From Oceaniferula marina (GTDB lineage Bacteria > Verrucomicrobiota > Verrucomicrobiia > Verrucomicrobiales > Akkermansiaceae), in the NCBI RefSeq assembly GCF_013391475.1, contig NZ_JACBAZ010000008.1, forward strand, positions 62,001 through 126,000: DNA of 64,000 nt, given 5' to 3'. Under the pieces are notes generated by a model. That model did not search any database and was not told the origin of the DNA. It worked only from the letters and a program-made list of their open reading frames with translations. This document shows, in pieces, positions 7,591-55,800 of this stretch (position 1 is the first letter of the stretch; each line of letters opens with the position of its first letter). The translations under genes and the position numbers were made by a program.

Positions 7591-7641
7591 AGGCGAGGAG
7601 ACAAGGCAGCTGGCCAACTTGACAAGGCCATGGAGCTCTAA

Positions 7642-7706
7642 TACCAAGTAGAAAAAACAGACGGGACGATAGCCGAGATGAATGAGTTCTTTGGTAAGGC
7701 GCGACG
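7642..7706 (+). mobile_element. Truncated MITE-like element, family 1
   Basis: About 65 bases match the left end of the complete family-1 copies at 21875-22075 and 55504-55703. The match covers the TACCAAGTAG terminus, the CAGACGGGACGATAGCCGAG segment, and TGAATGAGTTCTTTGGTAAG, ending at GGCGCGACG. The rest of the element is missing, so it was truncated by deletion. The terminus is preceded by TAA, matching the target preference of the complete copies. It has no coding capacity. Confidence 0.75.
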
Positions 7707-13150: not shown

Positions 13151-13319
13151 TGTGTAAGATTCCTTTCGTGTTAGCTGTTTCTTGAATACCTGGATTTACA
13201 TCCTCTTTTCGGCCTTTTCTGTCGTCCGCGCAGATCACAAAACCTGCGCGAACTGGTTCAGAAAAGTATGATGACTGGTGCTGGGTGCACCGAAGGATGT
13301 GGGATCCGGTATTAGCGGA

Positions 13320-14093
13320 TTAAACGGCCACACCCTCTGGGATCTTAGCCAAATGTGCATCGCCATTCACGGTCTGAATGGAAGCATTAAGCAGTTCCTC
13401 TGCAGAATGGTGGCATTCGGCAACGAGGTTATTGAGTTTATTCTTGAAGAAGAAATAAGCAGTAAGGGACGGAATGGCGGTCACCAGTCCCCAAAGCGTG
13501 GTCAACAGGGCCACGGAAATGTCACCGGCCAGAGCGGAGGGGTCAGCGGATCCGTCTCCACTGGCCAAGGTTCCGAACGCGCCGACCATACCAAGCACGG
13601 TTCCAAACAGTCCCAACATGGGAGCCGTTTGAGCGATCAAGGAAATATAGTTGATCAAGGTCATGCTTTTGCGGTTTTCGTTGATCGTAAAATCTGCGAT
13701 GGCGTCCTCAACGTAATCACGTCCGAGATCCTCAGGACGACGAGCGTCAACGTTAGGAAGCGCGTAAGCCATCATGCGACCGAGGTAGCTCGGGTGGGAT
13801 GCACCAAGCTCAATCGCGGAACGCACACGACAGTTCATCATGTGATCCATCAGACCCGCTTTTAAATCATCCGGGCAGAACTTGGTTTTGCTCAAGTTCA
13901 TAAAGTTAAAGACACAGAGTGCAATCAGGGCCAGAATAAGCAAACCAATGAGGATCATTGGCCAGCCACCGGCGATGACATACTTCTGCAAAAGGCTGTC
14001 CTCAGTTGCGGCGAACAAAGACGAGGTAGACATAAGTGCTGTGGAACCAGCGATGGCTACGGTCTTCAGGGATCGATAGGATTCGTATTTCAT
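13320..14093 (-). CDS. exbB: MotA/TolQ/ExbB proton-channel family protein
   Basis: A 257-residue ExbB/TolQ protein, the five-subunit scaffold and proton channel of the motor. It has a hydrophobic N-terminal segment (possibly a cleaved signal) and a membrane helix near residues 42-66. The conserved two-helix core is near residues 150-215 (ISLIAQTAPMLGLFGTVLGM and LAGDISVALLTTLWGLVTAI), with the invariant small residues and threonines that line the channel. It starts a minus-strand operon with two exbD genes and TPR proteins, so it is the motor base of a Tol/Ton-like system. A 169-base gap separates it from the first exbD. Confidence 0.93.
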   Translation of the reverse strand: MKYESYRSLKTVAIAGSTALMSTSSLFAATEDSLLQKYVIAGGWPMILIGLLILALIALCVFNFMNLSKTKFCPDDLKAGLMDHMMNCRVRSAIELGASHPSYLGRMMAYALPNVDARRPEDLGRDYVEDAIADFTINENRKSMTLINYISLIAQTAPMLGLFGTVLGMVGAFGTLASGDGSADPSALAGDISVALLTTLWGLVTAIPSLTAYFFFKNKLNNLVAECHHSAEELLNASIQTVNGDAHLAKIPEGVAV

Positions 14094-20797: not shown

Positions 20798-21874
20798 ATG
20801 CCGACCCGCCGCCAATTTTTACAAACCTCCATTGGAGCCAGCGCTGCGCTCACACTCCCTTCCGTAGCCGGGCTACCCGGGACAGAAAAAGAAGCCACCT
20901 TCATTCTAGTAGCAGACACCCACTATTCATCGGTTGACGAAAACCATCCGGCAAGCCTCGCCATGGTCAAAGCCATCAACCGCATTGCCGACGGCAGCTT
21001 CCGGTGGCCCATTCAAATCAATGGGCAACGATCCGGTTTTTCCTGTGCCGGAACCATCATCCAATCCCCACGTGGCATCATCCACCTCGGAGACATCACA
21101 GACTTCGGAGGAGGAACCGAGCTCAATGGAGGTAAAGGTTTTCTCGGGCTAAAACACTACCTGGGGTTCCGGCCCTTCTGGGAACATGACGGAGAAGGCG
21201 TAGGCAAATCCAAACTCAAAGTCGCCTACCCTGTCCACTGCGGTCTGGGCAACCACGACCTCGATCACAGCCAACGCAACCGCGAACGCATGTGGGCATA
21301 CATCCGTCAACGCCATGCAGGCGAGAATCCCCCCATCCCCGTTAGCAGCTTCGATGATGACTCTCTGAGTTATGCCCTGCACTGGGGGCCGCTGCGTATC
21401 CTCCAACTGCATCGGTTCGCCACCGACCGTATCTATGGCCGCAAACCCGCACTCCCATGGCTCAAACGCCAACTCGCCCAAGCGAAACAATCCGGCCAGC
21501 ACGTGCTACTGTGCCAACACTATGGTTTCGACCCCTTTGGTATCCAGTCGCGCTGGTGGACGGAAAAAGATCGAACCCAGCTGCTCGATGCCCTGGCACC
21601 TTATACTAACATCATCGGGCTCTGCCACGGCCACAGCCATGCCACCGGGCACTATTTCCGAAAAAAACTACGCGTCATCCGCTGCAACAACATGGGGTGG
21701 GAGTTAGATCGAGGCAACAAAGACGGTTACGGATCCTTCGCCCTCGTTCGAGCCACTGATACGCACTTCGACCTCGTTCACGTCCAGTGCATCAACGCCT
21801 CGGGTGATTTCAGGTTCAGTCCGAAACACGCAGTCGCCATCCGCACAAACCGAACCGCAGATAACAACTCATAA
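20798..21874 (+). CDS. Tat-exported calcineurin-like metallophosphoesterase
   Basis: A 358-residue secreted phosphoesterase. The N-terminus carries a twin-arginine signal (TRRQFLQTSIGASAALTLPS). Five metallophosphoesterase motifs are in order: VADTHY (Dx[H]), GDITDFGG (GDxxD), GNHDLDH (GNHD), CQHYGFDP and GHSHATG (GHxH). Fold and di-metal centre are therefore secure; the substrate is unknown, with a phosphodiester or phosphoprotein target possible. The TAA stop codon (21872-21874) is also the left copy of the target-site duplication of a MITE-like element that starts at the next base, so the element landed exactly on the stop. Confidence 0.88.
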   Translation: MPTRRQFLQTSIGASAALTLPSVAGLPGTEKEATFILVADTHYSSVDENHPASLAMVKAINRIADGSFRWPIQINGQRSGFSCAGTIIQSPRGIIHLGDITDFGGGTELNGGKGFLGLKHYLGFRPFWEHDGEGVGKSKLKVAYPVHCGLGNHDLDHSQRNRERMWAYIRQRHAGENPPIPVSSFDDDSLSYALHWGPLRILQLHRFATDRIYGRKPALPWLKRQLAQAKQSGQHVLLCQHYGFDPFGIQSRWWTEKDRTQLLDALAPYTNIIGLCHGHSHATGHYFRKKLRVIRCNNMGWELDRGNKDGYGSFALVRATDTHFDLVHVQCINASGDFRFSPKHAVAIRTNRTADNNS

Positions 21875-22075
21875 TACCACTCCGTAAAGCAGACGAGACG
21901 ATTGATCATTGTTGAGGTATTTGGAAAAGCACTGCGTGATCCATGAGAGTTCCGGATGAATGACTCCTTTGGCTTTGTTTCTCCTTAGTCATGGTGCCCG
22001 CACCATTCCTTCGTCGCGCCTTGCCAAAGAACTCATTCCTCTCGGCTATCGTCCCGTCTGTTTTACTCCTTGGCA
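21875..22075 (-). mobile_element. Complete MITE-like nested palindrome, family 1, with TAA duplication
   Basis: A 201-base element that, read on the minus strand, is nearly identical to the copy at 55504-55703, differing at only a handful of positions. Terminal inverted repeats are about 28 bases and imperfect, with CAGACGGGACGAT at one end against CAGACGAGACGAT at the other. Inside are nested inverted repeats and a perfect ATGGTGC-GG-GCACCAT hairpin. A direct TAA flanks both ends (21872-21874 and 22076-22078). The first is the stop codon of the upstream phosphoesterase gene. No coding capacity; it may also act as that gene's transcript end. Confidence 0.85.
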
Positions 22076-22086
22076 TAAGAAGCTGA

Positions 22087-41297: not shown

Positions 41298-41502
41298 TAC
41301 CATTTGATCAGTTAAATTGGCTGAATGGCACTGAAGGTTTTCGATTTTAACTAGGCGCAAGGAAGGCGCATAGCGGGCTATGCAACCGACGCGCAACAAC
41401 GGTAAAATCTAAAAGGTTCAGTGCCCCCTTGCCATTCAGCTTGCTGACTGACTCATCATCTTAAACTCAAACCATTCTGCCAATTTAACTGGGAGAATGG
41501 TA
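41298..41502. mobile_element. Complete MITE-like nested palindrome, family 2, with TTA duplication
   Basis: A 205-base element running from TACCATTTGATCAGTTAAAT to TTAACTGGGAGAATGGTA. The terminal inverted repeats are about 25 bases and imperfect. Inside are two further nested inverted repeats (GCTGAATGGCA/TGCCATTCAGC and GGCACTGAA...TTCAGTGCC) around a perfect GCATAGC-GG-GCTATGC hairpin (41368-41383). A direct TTA lies on both sides (41295-41297, 41503-41505). No coding capacity. It shares its end sequence with the element at 7820-7925. Confidence 0.85.
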
Positions 41503-41520
41503 TTACTCCCGATAGGAAGA

Positions 41521-41758
41521 GGAGTCGTTGTATTTTTCTCCTTCATCTGCGTGCTTACGCTTGATGGTCGCGGAGAATTTTCAGAAGGGTTTTGTCGTCA
41601 TATTACAATTTAAATACGGGTTACCATCTTTTTTTGACGCGTTGATCCTATCTTTCGTTTTGGTCGCAGGTATCATTGATGTGACTCTGCGATTAGGCGA
41701 CTTCAAGTGCTGTTACAGAGCCGAAGTTGCAGACCTAATACAAAAGACACAAAAGAAA
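41521..41758 (+). repeat. ~238-bp direct repeat, copy A
   Basis: This sequence aligns with 46672-46911 over its length; the first 90 bases are nearly identical (GTCATATTACAATTTAAA is shared), the rest is more diverged, and TACAAAAGACACAAA is shared at the end. There is a one-base difference in a T-run near the start. It lies upstream of the large prepilin-like gene. Copy B runs into the start codon of a PEP-CTERM gene; copy A has AAG in place of that ATG. Confidence 0.85.
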
Positions 41759-41851
41759 GAAGTGGCTTGGTGTAAATTGACGACCGAGAATAAATGTATT
41801 TACTTTGTATTTAGGCTCTGATGAGAACATAGCATATAGGCGTTAACACAG

Positions 41852-44800
41852 ATGAAAAACAATAAAACAATACTTATAAGTTGGAGATCTCCCCATCGGG
41901 GATTTGCTCTGGTGGCTACCATTTCTGTGATGGTATTGCTGGTAATGATTGCCTTGGCAATGCTTTCGATGTCTACGATTGAAATTAGGCAAACGCAAAG
42001 AAATGCCGCCAAGCATGAGGCTCGGGCAAACGCGCGTATGGCCTTAATGATAGCGATAGGTGATTTACAGAAATATGCTGGGCCTGACCAGAGGGTGACG
42101 GCGACAGCAGGGATTCTGGATACCGACCCGCAATCCGCTGAAGTCGATGGAATACGTCACCCCAACTGGGTGGGGGTTTGGCGAACAGATGGCTTAAAGA
42201 AAGAAGATCAGGATACCGCTATTATTGTGGCAGACCCGGACCGTGACCATCAGGCCTTGATTGACCGACGAGAGGATGCCGGATATGACCGTGAAAGTGA
42301 GGTCTTGTCGTGGCTGGTCAGTGGTGAGGACTCGGATCCAAAGCAATCTGCCGGTAATAATGAGATGGTTCGTCTATACGCTGTGGATAATCTACCTGTT
42401 GGTGTGAGTCCGGATGCAGTTGATGTTTACGCGGAGAGGGTGAGAGTGATGGGAGATTCATCTGTTGGCGGGGCGGCACTGAAGGGGCATTATGCGTATT
42501 GGGTCAGTGATGAGGGAACCAAGGCCAAGATGAATATTGGGGATGTGTATGCTGGGAAAAACCCGGATAAAAATGATCCTTCGGATGGTGGTTATTTCAA
42601 GTATTTGACTGCCCAAAGAAACGATTTTACACAAATTTTTGCGGACTATGATCAAGTGGCCCCTGATGAAATTTTTAAGATGATGACTGGCTCTCAAGCC
42701 AGTTTGTTGGATATGGGAGTGCCCGAGGGGTATAGCGATGCCTCGAGTGCGATGGATGTGTTACGTCACGACATTACCACCTATTCGTCCTCGCTTTTGG
42801 TTAATGTAGCTGAAGGAGGACTGAAAAAAGATCTAACCGCATATTTGGAGAGTTCAGGAACGGTTCCGACGCTTGGCACCATGCCAGGTGTAAGTGATGA
42901 GCTTGGTTTGATTGGACATGTGGACAAGCGGGAGACGATTGGCCCAAAGTATGGTGCATTGCGTTCGTGGTATGCTTTGAAGGAGGATGTGTCTGGGGGA
43001 TTAGGGAGTCGGAGTGTGAGTATGACCACGCCCAATGTCATGCCTGGTGGTCCGGCCATATATCATTCCGGAGGGGTCGACCCTACCAAATTTACGAAGC
43101 AACCGATCCACCCGGTTTTGAAGGAGGCTGTTTATTACGTGAGCCACGCGTATGATTCCAACCCGACATCAAGGAAAGTGTATGAGTTTATCTACCCGCG
43201 TGTAGTGCTCTGGAACCCATACAACGTAACTTTGAATGCTGACGAAATGTATGTCTTGATGGATATGCGTTTGACCTTATATGTGAAATACAGGTTTCGT
43301 GACAGCTCGGGGGCGTGGATTGAGAAGTCGTTTGATACCTGGTTGGCTTTTGGGGGGCTCAATGCCAATACCAGAGCGTTTACAATTCCAGCCACTAGTT
43401 TTAAACCTGGAGAGGCTCTTGTGTTTACGGCCATGCCGACTGGGTCGATGTTGAAGGGAAAGGCCGTGCCCTTTAGTGACCCTCGTTCCAATCTGCGCGG
43501 CAATCGATTGAGTGCATCTCATGCGCCGTCTGAATTGCATTGCTTTTACAACGAAAAAGGCACCTTGCCCGTTGGGACAGACATGTCTTCGGTTAGTTTG
43601 CGATATGGTGGAATTTTTTGGAATGGGACCAAGCCGACTCAAAGTGTATATTTGTTCGGAGCGAATGAGGGAGGAACCCCAACAGTAAATAATCTGGGGA
43701 CTTCTGCATTCCCAACGTTGCAGCAAATACATTTGGATAATTACTCCCGGGAAAATAATGGTCGATGGCTACCGACGTATTACCCTTACTCCACTTATGA
43801 TCTGGATGAGTTATTGAGTGGGGGTGTTTCACCGGATACCTTGAATGCATTCGGGCTGAGGTTCCGTCATATTTACGAGAGCCATTCCAACAGGGCCAAT
43901 GGTGTGCTGCTGGATGAACCATGGTACTCAGCTCCCATTATCCATAATAATATCAGGGCTGGCCGGGTTCATCGCTGGAGCCGCGACAATTTTTTTGGAC
44001 AGCGTTATGCTGGTGGTGCGGTGGATGCCAATTACAGTGGCCCTGCAGCTCATTTGTATAGCTACGGTCCACTTGCCCAATGTAGGCAGTGGCCGGAATG
44101 GAATGATTCGGAAGTAGCTCCTCACTTTAACGATGGGCGCTACAGGTCTGCGGTTTTTACAGATTCTTCTTTCGGGGGAAGCTCCCATGTTTACCCCTTG
44201 TTTGATTTGCCACATAAAGATGTTCCACTTTTTTCTCTGGCGTCACTGCAACATGTGCAGCTAACCCCATACCTTTGGCATCCGAGCTACGCGATTGGTA
44301 ACTCCTTTGCTCCCCCGTATAACGATTTGGGTGTAACAGCTCAAAGCTGGAATGAGGAGCGTGACGAGTGGGGGGATAAATTGAGGCAGTTGCAGCCCGG
44401 AGTGAATGATTTCGTGCATCAACTGAACAGCTCCAACGATAACACCCAAGTGTATGACCTATCTTATGAGGTGAATCATTCAATCTGGGACAAATTCTTT
44501 TTGTCGTCAATACCTCGGAATAAATCCCACCATGGATGGGGAGGAGGCAATGAGTGGAGTGAGGATGTGCCGATTCCAAATTCAAGGTATCATGTGGTTT
44601 CATCTTATTCGGATGCTGGAAGTTATGATGAACTAACCGATTATCATAAATCGGCCAAGGGCTTGATTGTGGATGGAGCCTTGAATGTAAACTCTACCAG
44701 TGTGCTTGCTTGGGAGTCGTTTTTACGTGCATTTAACGGGATTGGAGCTCCTGTTCGCTCTGGACCTGAGGGATCATCAGATGGTCATTCTTTTTCTAGG

Positions 44801-45526
44801 TTTATGCTTCCTGAATCGAGAGATGTGATACCAGCCGATATTAGTGAATCCGGTTTGTGGGGGGGATATCGGCGATTATCTGATGATGATATTCGCCGCT
44901 TAGCTGAGGAGATCGTTATCGACGTCAAGAAGCGCGGCCCGTTTATCAGCATGGCGGATTTTGTAAATCGTCGATTGCTGCAGACCGAAACATCATTTCG
45001 CCATCCAGAAATTGCTTATGCCGGGGCTCTCCAATCCGCCATCAATCGCGCTGGGCTCAATGATGCCCTGCAAGGGGATCCTGCCTCAGAGTTTACTATG
45101 CCTGACCCGGATAAGGCAAAAACCTATCAATATGGTGCGGAGTATTGGGGTGGCCCGATTCGTACGCCTAAACCCCAGCAGTATGATACTTTTGAGTATC
45201 AGCCTAAAAGTGGAAGTAAGCTCACGATATCGGAGGCTGCGGGAGCATCAGGGTATTTGATGCAGGGGGATATTTTGCAAAAAGTAGGGGCCGCACTGTC
45301 TGCTCGCTCGGATACTTTTGTGGTTAGGGCATACGGAGACTCAGTGGATGCACGGGGGCAGGTCTTAGCTCGAGCCTGGTGCGAAGCTGTGGTTCAGAGG
45401 ACCGTTGAACCGATCCACCCGGATCAGGATTCGGCAGGTTTGAATCCAGTCAAAGGAGATAGCCGAGATTTGGGTCGACGCTTCAAGGTGATTTCTTTCA
45501 GGTGGTTGACGTCCGATGAAGTCTAA
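41852..45526 (+). CDS. Very large prepilin-like secreted protein (Verru_Chthon cassette A-like)
   Basis: A 1224-residue protein with a short basic leader and a type IV prepilin-like helix (RGFALVATISVMVLLVMIAL). The helix lacks Glu5, as in the GspK/minor pseudopilin group. A conserved stretch ANARMALMIAIGDLQKYAGP follows, then a long globular part, and near the end GPFISMADFVNRRL and VLARAWCEAVVQR. These fit the large paralogous Verrucomicrobiota proteins named Verru_Chthon cassette protein A; that match is from memory, not a search. Only a hypothetical gene follows; the other cassette genes are not here. Codon use is more A/T-ending than in the flanking genes. Confidence 0.65.
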   Translation: MKNNKTILISWRSPHRGFALVATISVMVLLVMIALAMLSMSTIEIRQTQRNAAKHEARANARMALMIAIGDLQKYAGPDQRVTATAGILDTDPQSAEVDGIRHPNWVGVWRTDGLKKEDQDTAIIVADPDRDHQALIDRREDAGYDRESEVLSWLVSGEDSDPKQSAGNNEMVRLYAVDNLPVGVSPDAVDVYAERVRVMGDSSVGGAALKGHYAYWVSDEGTKAKMNIGDVYAGKNPDKNDPSDGGYFKYLTAQRNDFTQIFADYDQVAPDEIFKMMTGSQASLLDMGVPEGYSDASSAMDVLRHDITTYSSSLLVNVAEGGLKKDLTAYLESSGTVPTLGTMPGVSDELGLIGHVDKRETIGPKYGALRSWYALKEDVSGGLGSRSVSMTTPNVMPGGPAIYHSGGVDPTKFTKQPIHPVLKEAVYYVSHAYDSNPTSRKVYEFIYPRVVLWNPYNVTLNADEMYVLMDMRLTLYVKYRFRDSSGAWIEKSFDTWLAFGGLNANTRAFTIPATSFKPGEALVFTAMPTGSMLKGKAVPFSDPRSNLRGNRLSASHAPSELHCFYNEKGTLPVGTDMSSVSLRYGGIFWNGTKPTQSVYLFGANEGGTPTVNNLGTSAFPTLQQIHLDNYSRENNGRWLPTYYPYSTYDLDELLSGGVSPDTLNAFGLRFRHIYESHSNRANGVLLDEPWYSAPIIHNNIRAGRVHRWSRDNFFGQRYAGGAVDANYSGPAAHLYSYGPLAQCRQWPEWNDSEVAPHFNDGRYRSAVFTDSSFGGSSHVYPLFDLPHKDVPLFSLASLQHVQLTPYLWHPSYAIGNSFAPPYNDLGVTAQSWNEERDEWGDKLRQLQPGVNDFVHQLNSSNDNTQVYDLSYEVNHSIWDKFFLSSIPRNKSHHGWGGGNEWSEDVPIPNSRYHVVSSYSDAGSYDELTDYHKSAKGLIVDGALNVNSTSVLAWESFLRAFNGIGAPVRSGPEGSSDGHSFSRFMLPESRDVIPADISESGLWGGYRRLSDDDIRRLAEEIVIDVKKRGPFISMADFVNRRLLQTETSFRHPEIAYAGALQSAINRAGLNDALQGDPASEFTMPDPDKAKTYQYGAEYWGGPIRTPKPQQYDTFEYQPKSGSKLTISEAAGASGYLMQGDILQKVGAALSARSDTFVVRAYGDSVDARGQVLARAWCEAVVQRTVEPIHPDQDSAGLNPVKGDSRDLGRRFKVISFRWLTSDEV

Positions 45527-45544
45527 TGAGAGTCAGGAGATGTG

Positions 45545-46522
45545 ATGATGGCAAATAAACAATTGAAATTGAATCAGCTTTCTATGATGAAGTTTTGTGC
45601 AGCAGGCATCGTCGGGTTTGCTCTGCTTTTAGGGGGAGGCTTTTCCTTTGGTCAGGACGGAGAAGATGACGAGGAACGTTCGGAAAAGCGCAAGGAGCTT
45701 CCTTATGTTGATGTTTTTGTGATACCCGTTGGCCCTGTTCCCTTGGCCCGATTCGGCAAGGTGAAGTCTCCTCCGAAACCTCAAAATGGCAAACAGGCTG
45801 GAGATCAGGGAAGTTCAGAGGGGGCATCGCCCAAGGAAAATGAAAAGGCTTTACCAAGTGGACCCAAAGGGTTTGTCGTCTTGCAGAGGGACGCCAGTGA
45901 GTATCCGCCACGAGCGTTGTATTTAAAACAGGGTGATAAATTTGCTGTGCTACCCTGTGCTCAGAATAGCATCGGTACACCTGTTCGGGTTCCTCTCAAG
46001 AGCAGTAATCTGGAATTCTATGAACGGCAGGTAAACTCCGAAGGCAAGCATGTCTATAAAAAATATCACAGTCACCGATGGAACCCTGAGCAGAAACGGT
46101 TGTTAGTGACGATTACCAAACCTTTGGCCAGCAAGTATTGGACGAAACCACAAATCAAAATCTATGATCTTTCTCCTGAACTGGTCAAAGGGAAACCTTT
46201 GCTCGTGGTGAATGCAGGGCAAGAGCGTGTGGTTGGATTAACGATGGGCGGTCAAGCAAAGCGCCTCAAGCCATTTGCTAAAACTTCGTTAAGTAGTGAC
46301 AAAGAGGTGTTGTCGTTCAAGATGGGAGTTCTGACCAAAACAAATAAACTGCATGCACCACAACAGCTGACTGTCCCCAACCGACGGAATGAGCAGATGT
46401 TGATACTGGCATTTCCTTGTTCGTCCGAGGAATCGTTTCGAGGCTTGAAAATGATCCGCGGCCGCATCATGCCTGATCAATATCGTAAGGTTGATCTGCT
46501 GGATACCAAACGAGGTGCGTGA
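45545..46522 (+). CDS. Hypothetical secreted protein downstream of the prepilin-like gene
   Basis: A 325-residue protein with a signal-like segment (KFCAAGIVGFALLLGGGFSFG) and then an acidic/basic stretch (DGEDDEERSEKRKE). The rest is mostly beta-strand-like, with no recognised family. Of three in-frame starts (GTG 45542, ATG 45545, ATG 45548), AGGAG at 45535-45539 favours one of the two ATGs. It follows the prepilin-like gene by 18 bases and is probably cotranscribed and partnered with it. Its codon use is A/T-rich like that gene. Confidence 0.65.
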   Translation: MMANKQLKLNQLSMMKFCAAGIVGFALLLGGGFSFGQDGEDDEERSEKRKELPYVDVFVIPVGPVPLARFGKVKSPPKPQNGKQAGDQGSSEGASPKENEKALPSGPKGFVVLQRDASEYPPRALYLKQGDKFAVLPCAQNSIGTPVRVPLKSSNLEFYERQVNSEGKHVYKKYHSHRWNPEQKRLLVTITKPLASKYWTKPQIKIYDLSPELVKGKPLLVVNAGQERVVGLTMGGQAKRLKPFAKTSLSSDKEVLSFKMGVLTKTNKLHAPQQLTVPNRRNEQMLILAFPCSSEESFRGLKMIRGRIMPDQYRKVDLLDTKRGA

Positions 46523-46905
46523 GGGCTTCACTTTTTGTAACGAGCTACAACAAAGTTTTCCAACCTTAAAAAAATACCCCCTGATGTAAAGCATGGTTGA
46601 GGTTAGCGAGACCATCGCTTTAAATGCGAGGTGTGTTTTTCGTAGAGCCTTGATATGCGGAGGTAGCGTTTGAGGCGTCGTTGTATTTTTTTTCCTTCGT
46701 CTGCGTGCTTGCGCTTGATGGTCGCGGACAATCTTCAGAAGGGTTTTGTAGTCATATTACAATTTAAAGCCGATCATCATCTTTTTTTTGTCGCGATGAT
46801 CCTATCTTTCGTCTTGATAATAGGTAGGATTGATGAGGATCCGAGATTGGGTGGCTGCAAGTGCTGCGCAGGACCGAAGCTGCAAACCATATACAAAAGA
46901 CACAA
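46523..46905. other. 383-base gene-free stretch containing repeat copy B
   Basis: The first 149 bases after the hypothetical gene show no gene or convincing terminator. The rest (46672 onwards) is the second copy of the ~238-bp direct repeat, which runs into the start of the PEP-CTERM gene. Confidence 0.6.
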
Positions 46906-46911
46906 ATGAAA
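46672..46911 (+). repeat. ~238-bp direct repeat, copy B
   Basis: Matches 41521-41758 in the same orientation. The match is strongest over the first 90 bases and again at the end, where it includes TACAAAAGACACAAA and runs into the ATG (46906) of the PEP-CTERM gene. In this copy the repeat is therefore the leader of that gene. Its own small reading frame is discussed in the findings. Confidence 0.85.
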
Positions 46912-47649
46912 AAAATATTACTTAAAACCCTACTGTTCGCTGCTGGGGCGTCGGGCGTATCAGCTACCACTACACTGGCAACGTATATTGACGGCGCAGA
47001 CTATGCAGACACCAACACGCCGGCAGCCTCATCTGATGCGAGTATTACGGCGTCGGTGATGAGCTTTGAGAGCCTGAGCGGAGGGTTCGGAGGACCTGTG
47101 CGTGACACATTTGGAGATGTCCCAGTAGGAGGTGCCGGAGATAGTTCTTTTTGGTATATTATAAACGCCAACCAGGATTTAAGCTCTGATCCTGGAGCTG
47201 CGTCTGCGGTTGCATCTGATTATTTTGGTTTTATGGTCACCGTCGATGCCGGTTCTGCCATCAATGCCACAGCTCTTACCTTTGATTGGGGGATTGGCAA
47301 TAATGATGGGACCGTTACAGGGGCGATTCTAGGTTGGCGTGCCTTTGCCAGTGTCGATGGCGGAGCCTTCACTTCAGTCGGTACAAGTGAAGTGACCACA
47401 GACGTTGTTACTAAAACCTGGCTGGGGCAAACGTCAGCCAATCTCGATCTCGCCGGGTTGGCGACAACCGGTGACGGCGGAAATATCGAAATAAGAATTC
47501 AACAGTGGACCTCAAGCTCCTCCGGCGGTTTGCATAACTCTTATCAAAACCTGACTATTCATGGAGATATCCAAGCGGTGCCAGAACCATCCTCGGCAGC
47601 TCTTCTCGGTCTTGGGGGATTGGCATTGATCATGCGTCGCCGAAAGTAA
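46906..47649 (+). CDS. PEP-CTERM sorting domain protein (1)
   Basis: A 247-residue secreted protein with an N-terminal signal (KKILLKTLLFAAGASGVSAT) and a C-terminal sorting tail: VPEPSS, a hydrophobic helix (AALLGLGGLALIM) and RRRK. The region between is rich in Gly, Ser, Thr and Asp and beta-strand-like, as in many exported polysaccharide-associated PEP-CTERM proteins. Exosortase/XrtA-type processing and transfer to the surface is inferred; no exosortase gene is in the window. Codon use is less C-ending than in most of the window. A rho-independent terminator follows. Confidence 0.9.
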   Translation: MKKILLKTLLFAAGASGVSATTTLATYIDGADYADTNTPAASSDASITASVMSFESLSGGFGGPVRDTFGDVPVGGAGDSSFWYIINANQDLSSDPGAASAVASDYFGFMVTVDAGSAINATALTFDWGIGNNDGTVTGAILGWRAFASVDGGAFTSVGTSEVTTDVVTKTWLGQTSANLDLAGLATTGDGGNIEIRIQQWTSSSSGGLHNSYQNLTIHGDIQAVPEPSSAALLGLGGLALIMRRRK

Positions 47650-55386: not shown

Positions 55387-55503
55387 GAGCCTAAAGCCAA
55401 GCCCATGAGGCAATGGATCAAGAGCTCACATTAAAAATGTTAAACAAACGGGAATTTTCAGCCGGCTTAACGCTCTGTGGAAGTCTCCCACGGATCGAAG
55501 TTA

Positions 55504-55703
55504 TACCAAGTAGTAAACAGACGGGACGATAGCCGAGATGAATGAGTTCTTTGGTAAGGCGCGACGAAGGAATGGTGCGGGCACCATGACTAAGGAGAAA
55601 CAAAGCCAAAGGAGTCATTCATCCGGAACTCTCATGGATCACGCAGTGCTTTTCCAAATACCTCAATAACGATCAATCGTCTCGTCTGTTTTGCGGAGTG
55701 GTA
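55504..55703 (+). mobile_element. Complete MITE-like nested palindrome, family 1, with TTA duplication
   Basis: A 200-base element from TACCAAGTAGTAAACAGACG to CTGTTTTGCGGAGTGGTA, nearly identical to the reverse complement of 21875-22075. Terminal repeats are about 28 bases and imperfect. Nested inverted repeats include GATGAATGAGTTCTTTGG against CCAAAGGAGTCATTCATC. They surround a perfect ATGGTGC-GG-GCACCAT hairpin (55572-55587). A direct TTA flanks it (55501-55503 and 55704-55706). No coding capacity. It lies between fbaA and a PEP-CTERM gene. Confidence 0.88.
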
Positions 55704-55800
55704 TTATAAACTAAACATATTGACCATCCCTTCTGGATCTGTTACATGCTAACTCAGTGTAAGTGACTTACGCGTATCATTACCTCACCCTCATTAGTTC

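Follow-up and report, generated by a model that had tools for sequence, protein, structure and literature searches.

The direct repeat in the window, by which the whole 64-kb stretch of DNA analysed is meant, is probably non-coding DNA from upstream of a PEP-CTERM gene (its promoter and leader) that has been duplicated, with one copy, copy A, being a remnant left after gene loss. Self-comparison of the window aligned copy A with copy B at 82.0% identity over 245 columns with 4 gaps (E ~1e-60 to 2e-60), in direct orientation and 5.15 kb apart. This bears out an earlier note on this DNA that described a ~238-bp direct repeat, alike over the first ~90 bases and again at the end.

41519..41761, + strand: copy A, which matches copy B at 82% identity; the sole other copy in the genome.
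46672..46914, + strand: copy B, which covers the region upstream of a PEP-CTERM gene together with its first codons.

The pair ranked second among the self-matches of the window, the top match being two copies of a MITE-like element that was also involved in the remaining self-matches. An assembly artefact was ruled out as a single 255-kb contig contains the two copies in its interior and 18% of their columns differ. Differences between the copies were concentrated in the middle of the repeat. The first ~90 bases were more alike (8 differences in 85 columns versus 35 in 155 for the rest, Fisher p=0.013, with the boundary picked after looking; an 80-column scan gave a permutation p=0.003) and the last ~20 bases were nearly identical. 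Constraint on both copies may have kept the ~90-base block; a roughly two-fold unevenness in divergence is, however, also the expectation if copy B alone is constrained and by itself is no proof that both copies work. At its downstream end copy B reaches the ATG of the PEP-CTERM gene at 46906-46908 where copy A has AAG, as had been noted before, and the homology crosses this ATG and ends within a few codons.

Only two copies of the repeat were found in a search of the whole 5.07-Mb genome. Matches in 57 relatives were at chance level (16–34 bases), none of 259 further genomes from the family had a copy, and a 20-base core had no exact match in GTDB contigs or viral contigs, from which the genome of the window itself is possibly absent. 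A search of plasmids with the translated frame of the repeat likewise gave no match. These results make the pair a local event of this lineage and not a family of leaders, and with further copies absent from the genome and its relatives the idea of a repeat family, put forward earlier as a shared leader, was dropped in favour of a single local duplication. When the 350 bases ahead of each of ~110 PEP-CTERM genes were compared with one another, copy B matched copy A only, and a leader family shared by PEP-CTERM genes was rejected. Most of the other matches among these regions came from the coding ends of genes lying before them, from MITEs or from genes copied in tandem. These leader comparisons were based on individually retrieved stretches and genome searches. 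The repeat is an ordinary local duplication, neither a spreading element nor a shared regulatory family. It matters little beyond this locus.

That the repeat encodes a small protein or a leader peptide (in frames 41528-41821 and 46670-46909) is highly improbable. The same frame is open in both copies despite two indels, it overlaps the PEP-CTERM start as ATGA in copy B (46670-46909), and 14 synonymous differences were counted in it against 10.1 expected. This was not significant, however (p=0.11, permutation of differences), and none of the six frames searched by permutation had a synonymous excess, this frame being the best of them. By codon phase the differences over the whole repeat numbered 14/13/17, so that the third-position changes in which the earlier note saw a hint of coding did not hold up. 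The codon usage score of the frame was -0.13 in copy A and -0.16 in copy B, compared to a mean of 0.11 and a first percentile of -0.13 for real genes. Single-base indels separate the copies, the frame terminates at different points in the two, a Pfam search gave no match and no protein relative was found in 289 genomes of the order. The repeat was rejected as a protein-coding gene on codon phase, synonymous excess, codon usage and homologs alike.

The rival reading, a mobile element or structured RNA, is largely refuted by copy number and folding tests, and we consider it next to impossible, even with a true MITE-like element adjoining copy A. There are just the two copies 5.15 kb apart, and no terminal inverted repeats were found at the repeat ends (end match p=0.63 and 0.15); on these two grounds a MITE or other mobile element was rejected. 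An Rfam search gave no match, fold z-scores of -0.6 and -1.5 were within reach of shuffled sequence, and 1 compensatory pair was found in 53. A structured cis-regulatory RNA was rejected for want of an Rfam match and of a stable or covarying fold, two sequences offering little power to detect covariation. The MITE-like elements of the window are the following:

41298..41504, no strand assigned: MITE-1, MITE-like, 207 bp long and bounded by ~30-bp terminal inverted repeats ATACCATT...AATGGTAT.
55501-55707; 21871-22078 (reverse); 7637-7706 (partial): MITE-2, ~207 bp, with ATACCAAGTAGTAAAACAGACGGGACGAT... ends.

MITE-1 ends 14 bp before copy A and is not part of the repeat. It is present in about 26 near-full-length copies in the genome at 95–100% identity, has a TA-like target, and none of 500 shuffles gave inverted ends as good as its own. 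MITE-2 is present in at least 40 copies at 97–99% identity, with more candidates unscored, and one copy stands just upstream of a PEP-CTERM gene at about 55801. Some MITE-1 copies appear to be nested in MITE-2 (L008, L017).

Copy B is most likely the promoter and leader that drives the PEP-CTERM gene, judging from its position, because it precedes such a gene and enters its start codon.

46906..47649, + strand: 247-aa PEP-CTERM protein (TIGR02595 26.5 bits, cut-off 16; PF07589 26, cut-off 20.7).
46734..46763, + strand: weak promoter-like TTCAGA-18-TACAAT in the conserved block, with a matching site at 41580-41609 in copy A.

The promoter-like site is weak, about one such site being expected by chance per stretch scanned, in both copies. 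The gene after copy B has a C-terminal PEP motif, a hydrophobic stretch and a basic end, and scores at or above cut-off. Like the surface proteins of PEP-CTERM/exosortase systems (PMC1569441) its product has a TIGR02595/PF07589 sorting domain and, as in that system, many paralogs in the genome; a leader like that of copy B is, however, not common to the ~110 PEP-CTERM upstream regions compared. PEP-CTERM genes are abundant in this genome, with about 130 hits, and form tandem arrays (L177). An RpoN-dependent PEP-CTERM gene has been reported in Aquincola (PMC9850573), and a search of the literature on PEP-CTERM promoters in Verrucomicrobia returned nothing useful. Short operator-like motifs are shared between upstream regions of PEP-CTERM genes at L191 and L195 and at L212 and L213, namely direct repeats like TGGACANATCGTGCA and the palindrome TGTCACGGGTACCCGTGACT.

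Two genes lie between the copies, as the earlier note had counted, and this pair is a standard module of a Verru_Chthon_A gene and its partner:

41852..45526, + strand: 1224-aa prepilin-like protein, a distant Verru_Chthon_A relative with an N-terminal TIGR02600 match and 14 paralogs.
45542..46522, + strand: 326-aa secreted partner protein (start alternatively 45545 or 45548), with a partner gene at paralogous loci.

The 1224-aa protein resembles Verru_Chthon cassette protein A (TIGR02600) in its prepilin-like N terminus and in length, and the genome holds 15 such genes, the window gene and its 14 paralogs. The match covers only the N-terminal 59 positions (E 9e-7) and at 27.1 bits falls short of the whole-protein cut-off of 332.3, for which reason full membership was rejected. 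Unlike in the named cassette, no other cassette gene was recognised beside the window gene; a search of the literature on the Verru_Chthon cassette gave nothing useful. At nearly every paralogous locus the Verru_Chthon_A gene is followed directly by a secreted partner of about 230–330 aa. The 326-aa partner has clear relatives in G022, a genome of a different genus, only, and weak ones in congeners; GTDB contigs searched with it gave no match. In a tree, the window Verru_Chthon_A protein falls beside two G022 genes, apart from its own paralogs (support of 95/95 for the nearest G022 gene). The two congeners examined carry other modules.

The earlier suggestion that the two genes are a cassette moved by recombination thus stands in part, in that the module recurs and its first gene is closest to a gene of another genus; the repeats are, however, absent there. 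Entry of the pair by recombination at an existing leader, with leader sequence left on both sides (for example by integration of a circle carrying a related leader), would agree with these observations, the weak presence of the partner in congeners included, and with the surroundings of the MerR-type gene, which in congeners lack the pair. We regard such an entry as unlikely, however, since 18% divergence between the copies is high for the product of a recent crossover, leader homology was not found at the G022 modules, and no integrase or attachment-site features were seen.

The Verru_Chthon_A-like gene moreover seems to be served by its own leader, outside of which copy A lies.

41756..41851, + strand: leader/promoter-like stretch of the Verru_Chthon_A-like gene; core TGTATTTACTTTGTATTT; 72% identical to a paralog leader.

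These ~95 bases after copy A match the leader of a paralog (G000:C4, ~768.3 kb) at 72% identity over 108 bases, the match starting at the end of copy A, and the core TGTATTTACTTTGTATTT is recognisable in the leaders of two neighbouring paralogs too; on this similarity the gene seems to own a separate leader. The join carries an A-rich run (CACAAAAGAAAGAAG in copy A, CACAAATGAAAAAAATA in copy B and TATTAAAAAAGAGG in the paralog) that would suit an illegitimate join. The 72% identity between 41756-41851 and L083 (near 13306-13405) is found between genes whose proteins are 35% identical and not sisters in the tree, which points to an exchange of leaders or to strong constraint on regulation.

Given the separate leader, it is doubtful that copy A was placed before the Verru_Chthon_A/partner pair and kept for PEP-CTERM-like control, making two working copies. 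Such a capture would account for the first ~90 bases with the promoter-like site being much better kept than the middle, and both products resemble cell-envelope proteins; constraint on copy B alone would give the same conservation pattern, however, and no other gene in the genome has taken this leader. Slighter still is the prospect that both copies are live and bring two unrelated envelope genes, the prepilin-like (pseudopilin-like) and the PEP-CTERM gene, under one regulator via a copied promoter unit. The locus would lend itself to a simple test of promoter sharing, through copying, between envelope genes that are not related.

A close known parallel is the duplicated promoter/upstream region that a tandem or segmental duplication of genes leaves behind in bacterial genomes. 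Here too, direct-orientation non-coding paralogs stand before two genes, unevenly diverged and without signs of a mobile element. As the two downstream genes are unrelated in this case, at least one gene has been replaced or lost. In the most likely history, a unit of leader and PEP-CTERM gene came by duplication to flank the Verru_Chthon_A/partner pair, after which the upstream one of the two PEP-CTERM genes was lost by deletion. Copy A would then be a PEP-CTERM upstream region truncated at the start codon, with the A-rich stretch as its junction to the Verru_Chthon_A-like leader, and perhaps still firing, and copy B would keep its place before the PEP-CTERM gene as working promoter and leader. 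Of the earlier readings, that of a leader or upstream region accordingly fits copy B and that of a remnant best fits copy A; a general shared leader is not supported.

Homology up to and over the copy B ATG, together with the lack of coding signal and of terminal inverted repeats, argues for a duplicated upstream region, as do the paralog-like leader that starts at the end of copy A and the abundance and tandem arrays of PEP-CTERM genes. A PEP-CTERM gene lost after copy A is favoured mainly because a PEP-CTERM gene stands directly upstream at 3 of the 14 other Verru_Chthon_A genes (L082, L086, L090), where a rough count, taking about 130 of an assumed ~4,300 genes to be PEP-CTERM genes, would give fewer than 1 of 14. 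Against this, the promoter-like site does not exceed chance expectation, nothing of a lost PEP-CTERM body is left after copy A, and a relative with the intact ancestral arrangement was not found. We favour gene loss after duplication over capture of the promoter and over insertion of the module; no new kind of element is needed by any of the three histories. The repeat illustrates how this genome, with ~130 PEP-CTERM and 15 Verru_Chthon_A-like genes, reshuffles its upstream regions and its modules of envelope genes.

At L082 (9640-12638), genes that by eye are sigma-factor-like and FecR/LamG-like stand directly before the PEP-CTERM gene and Verru_Chthon_A module, and similar preceding-gene ends stand before several other PEP-CTERM genes.
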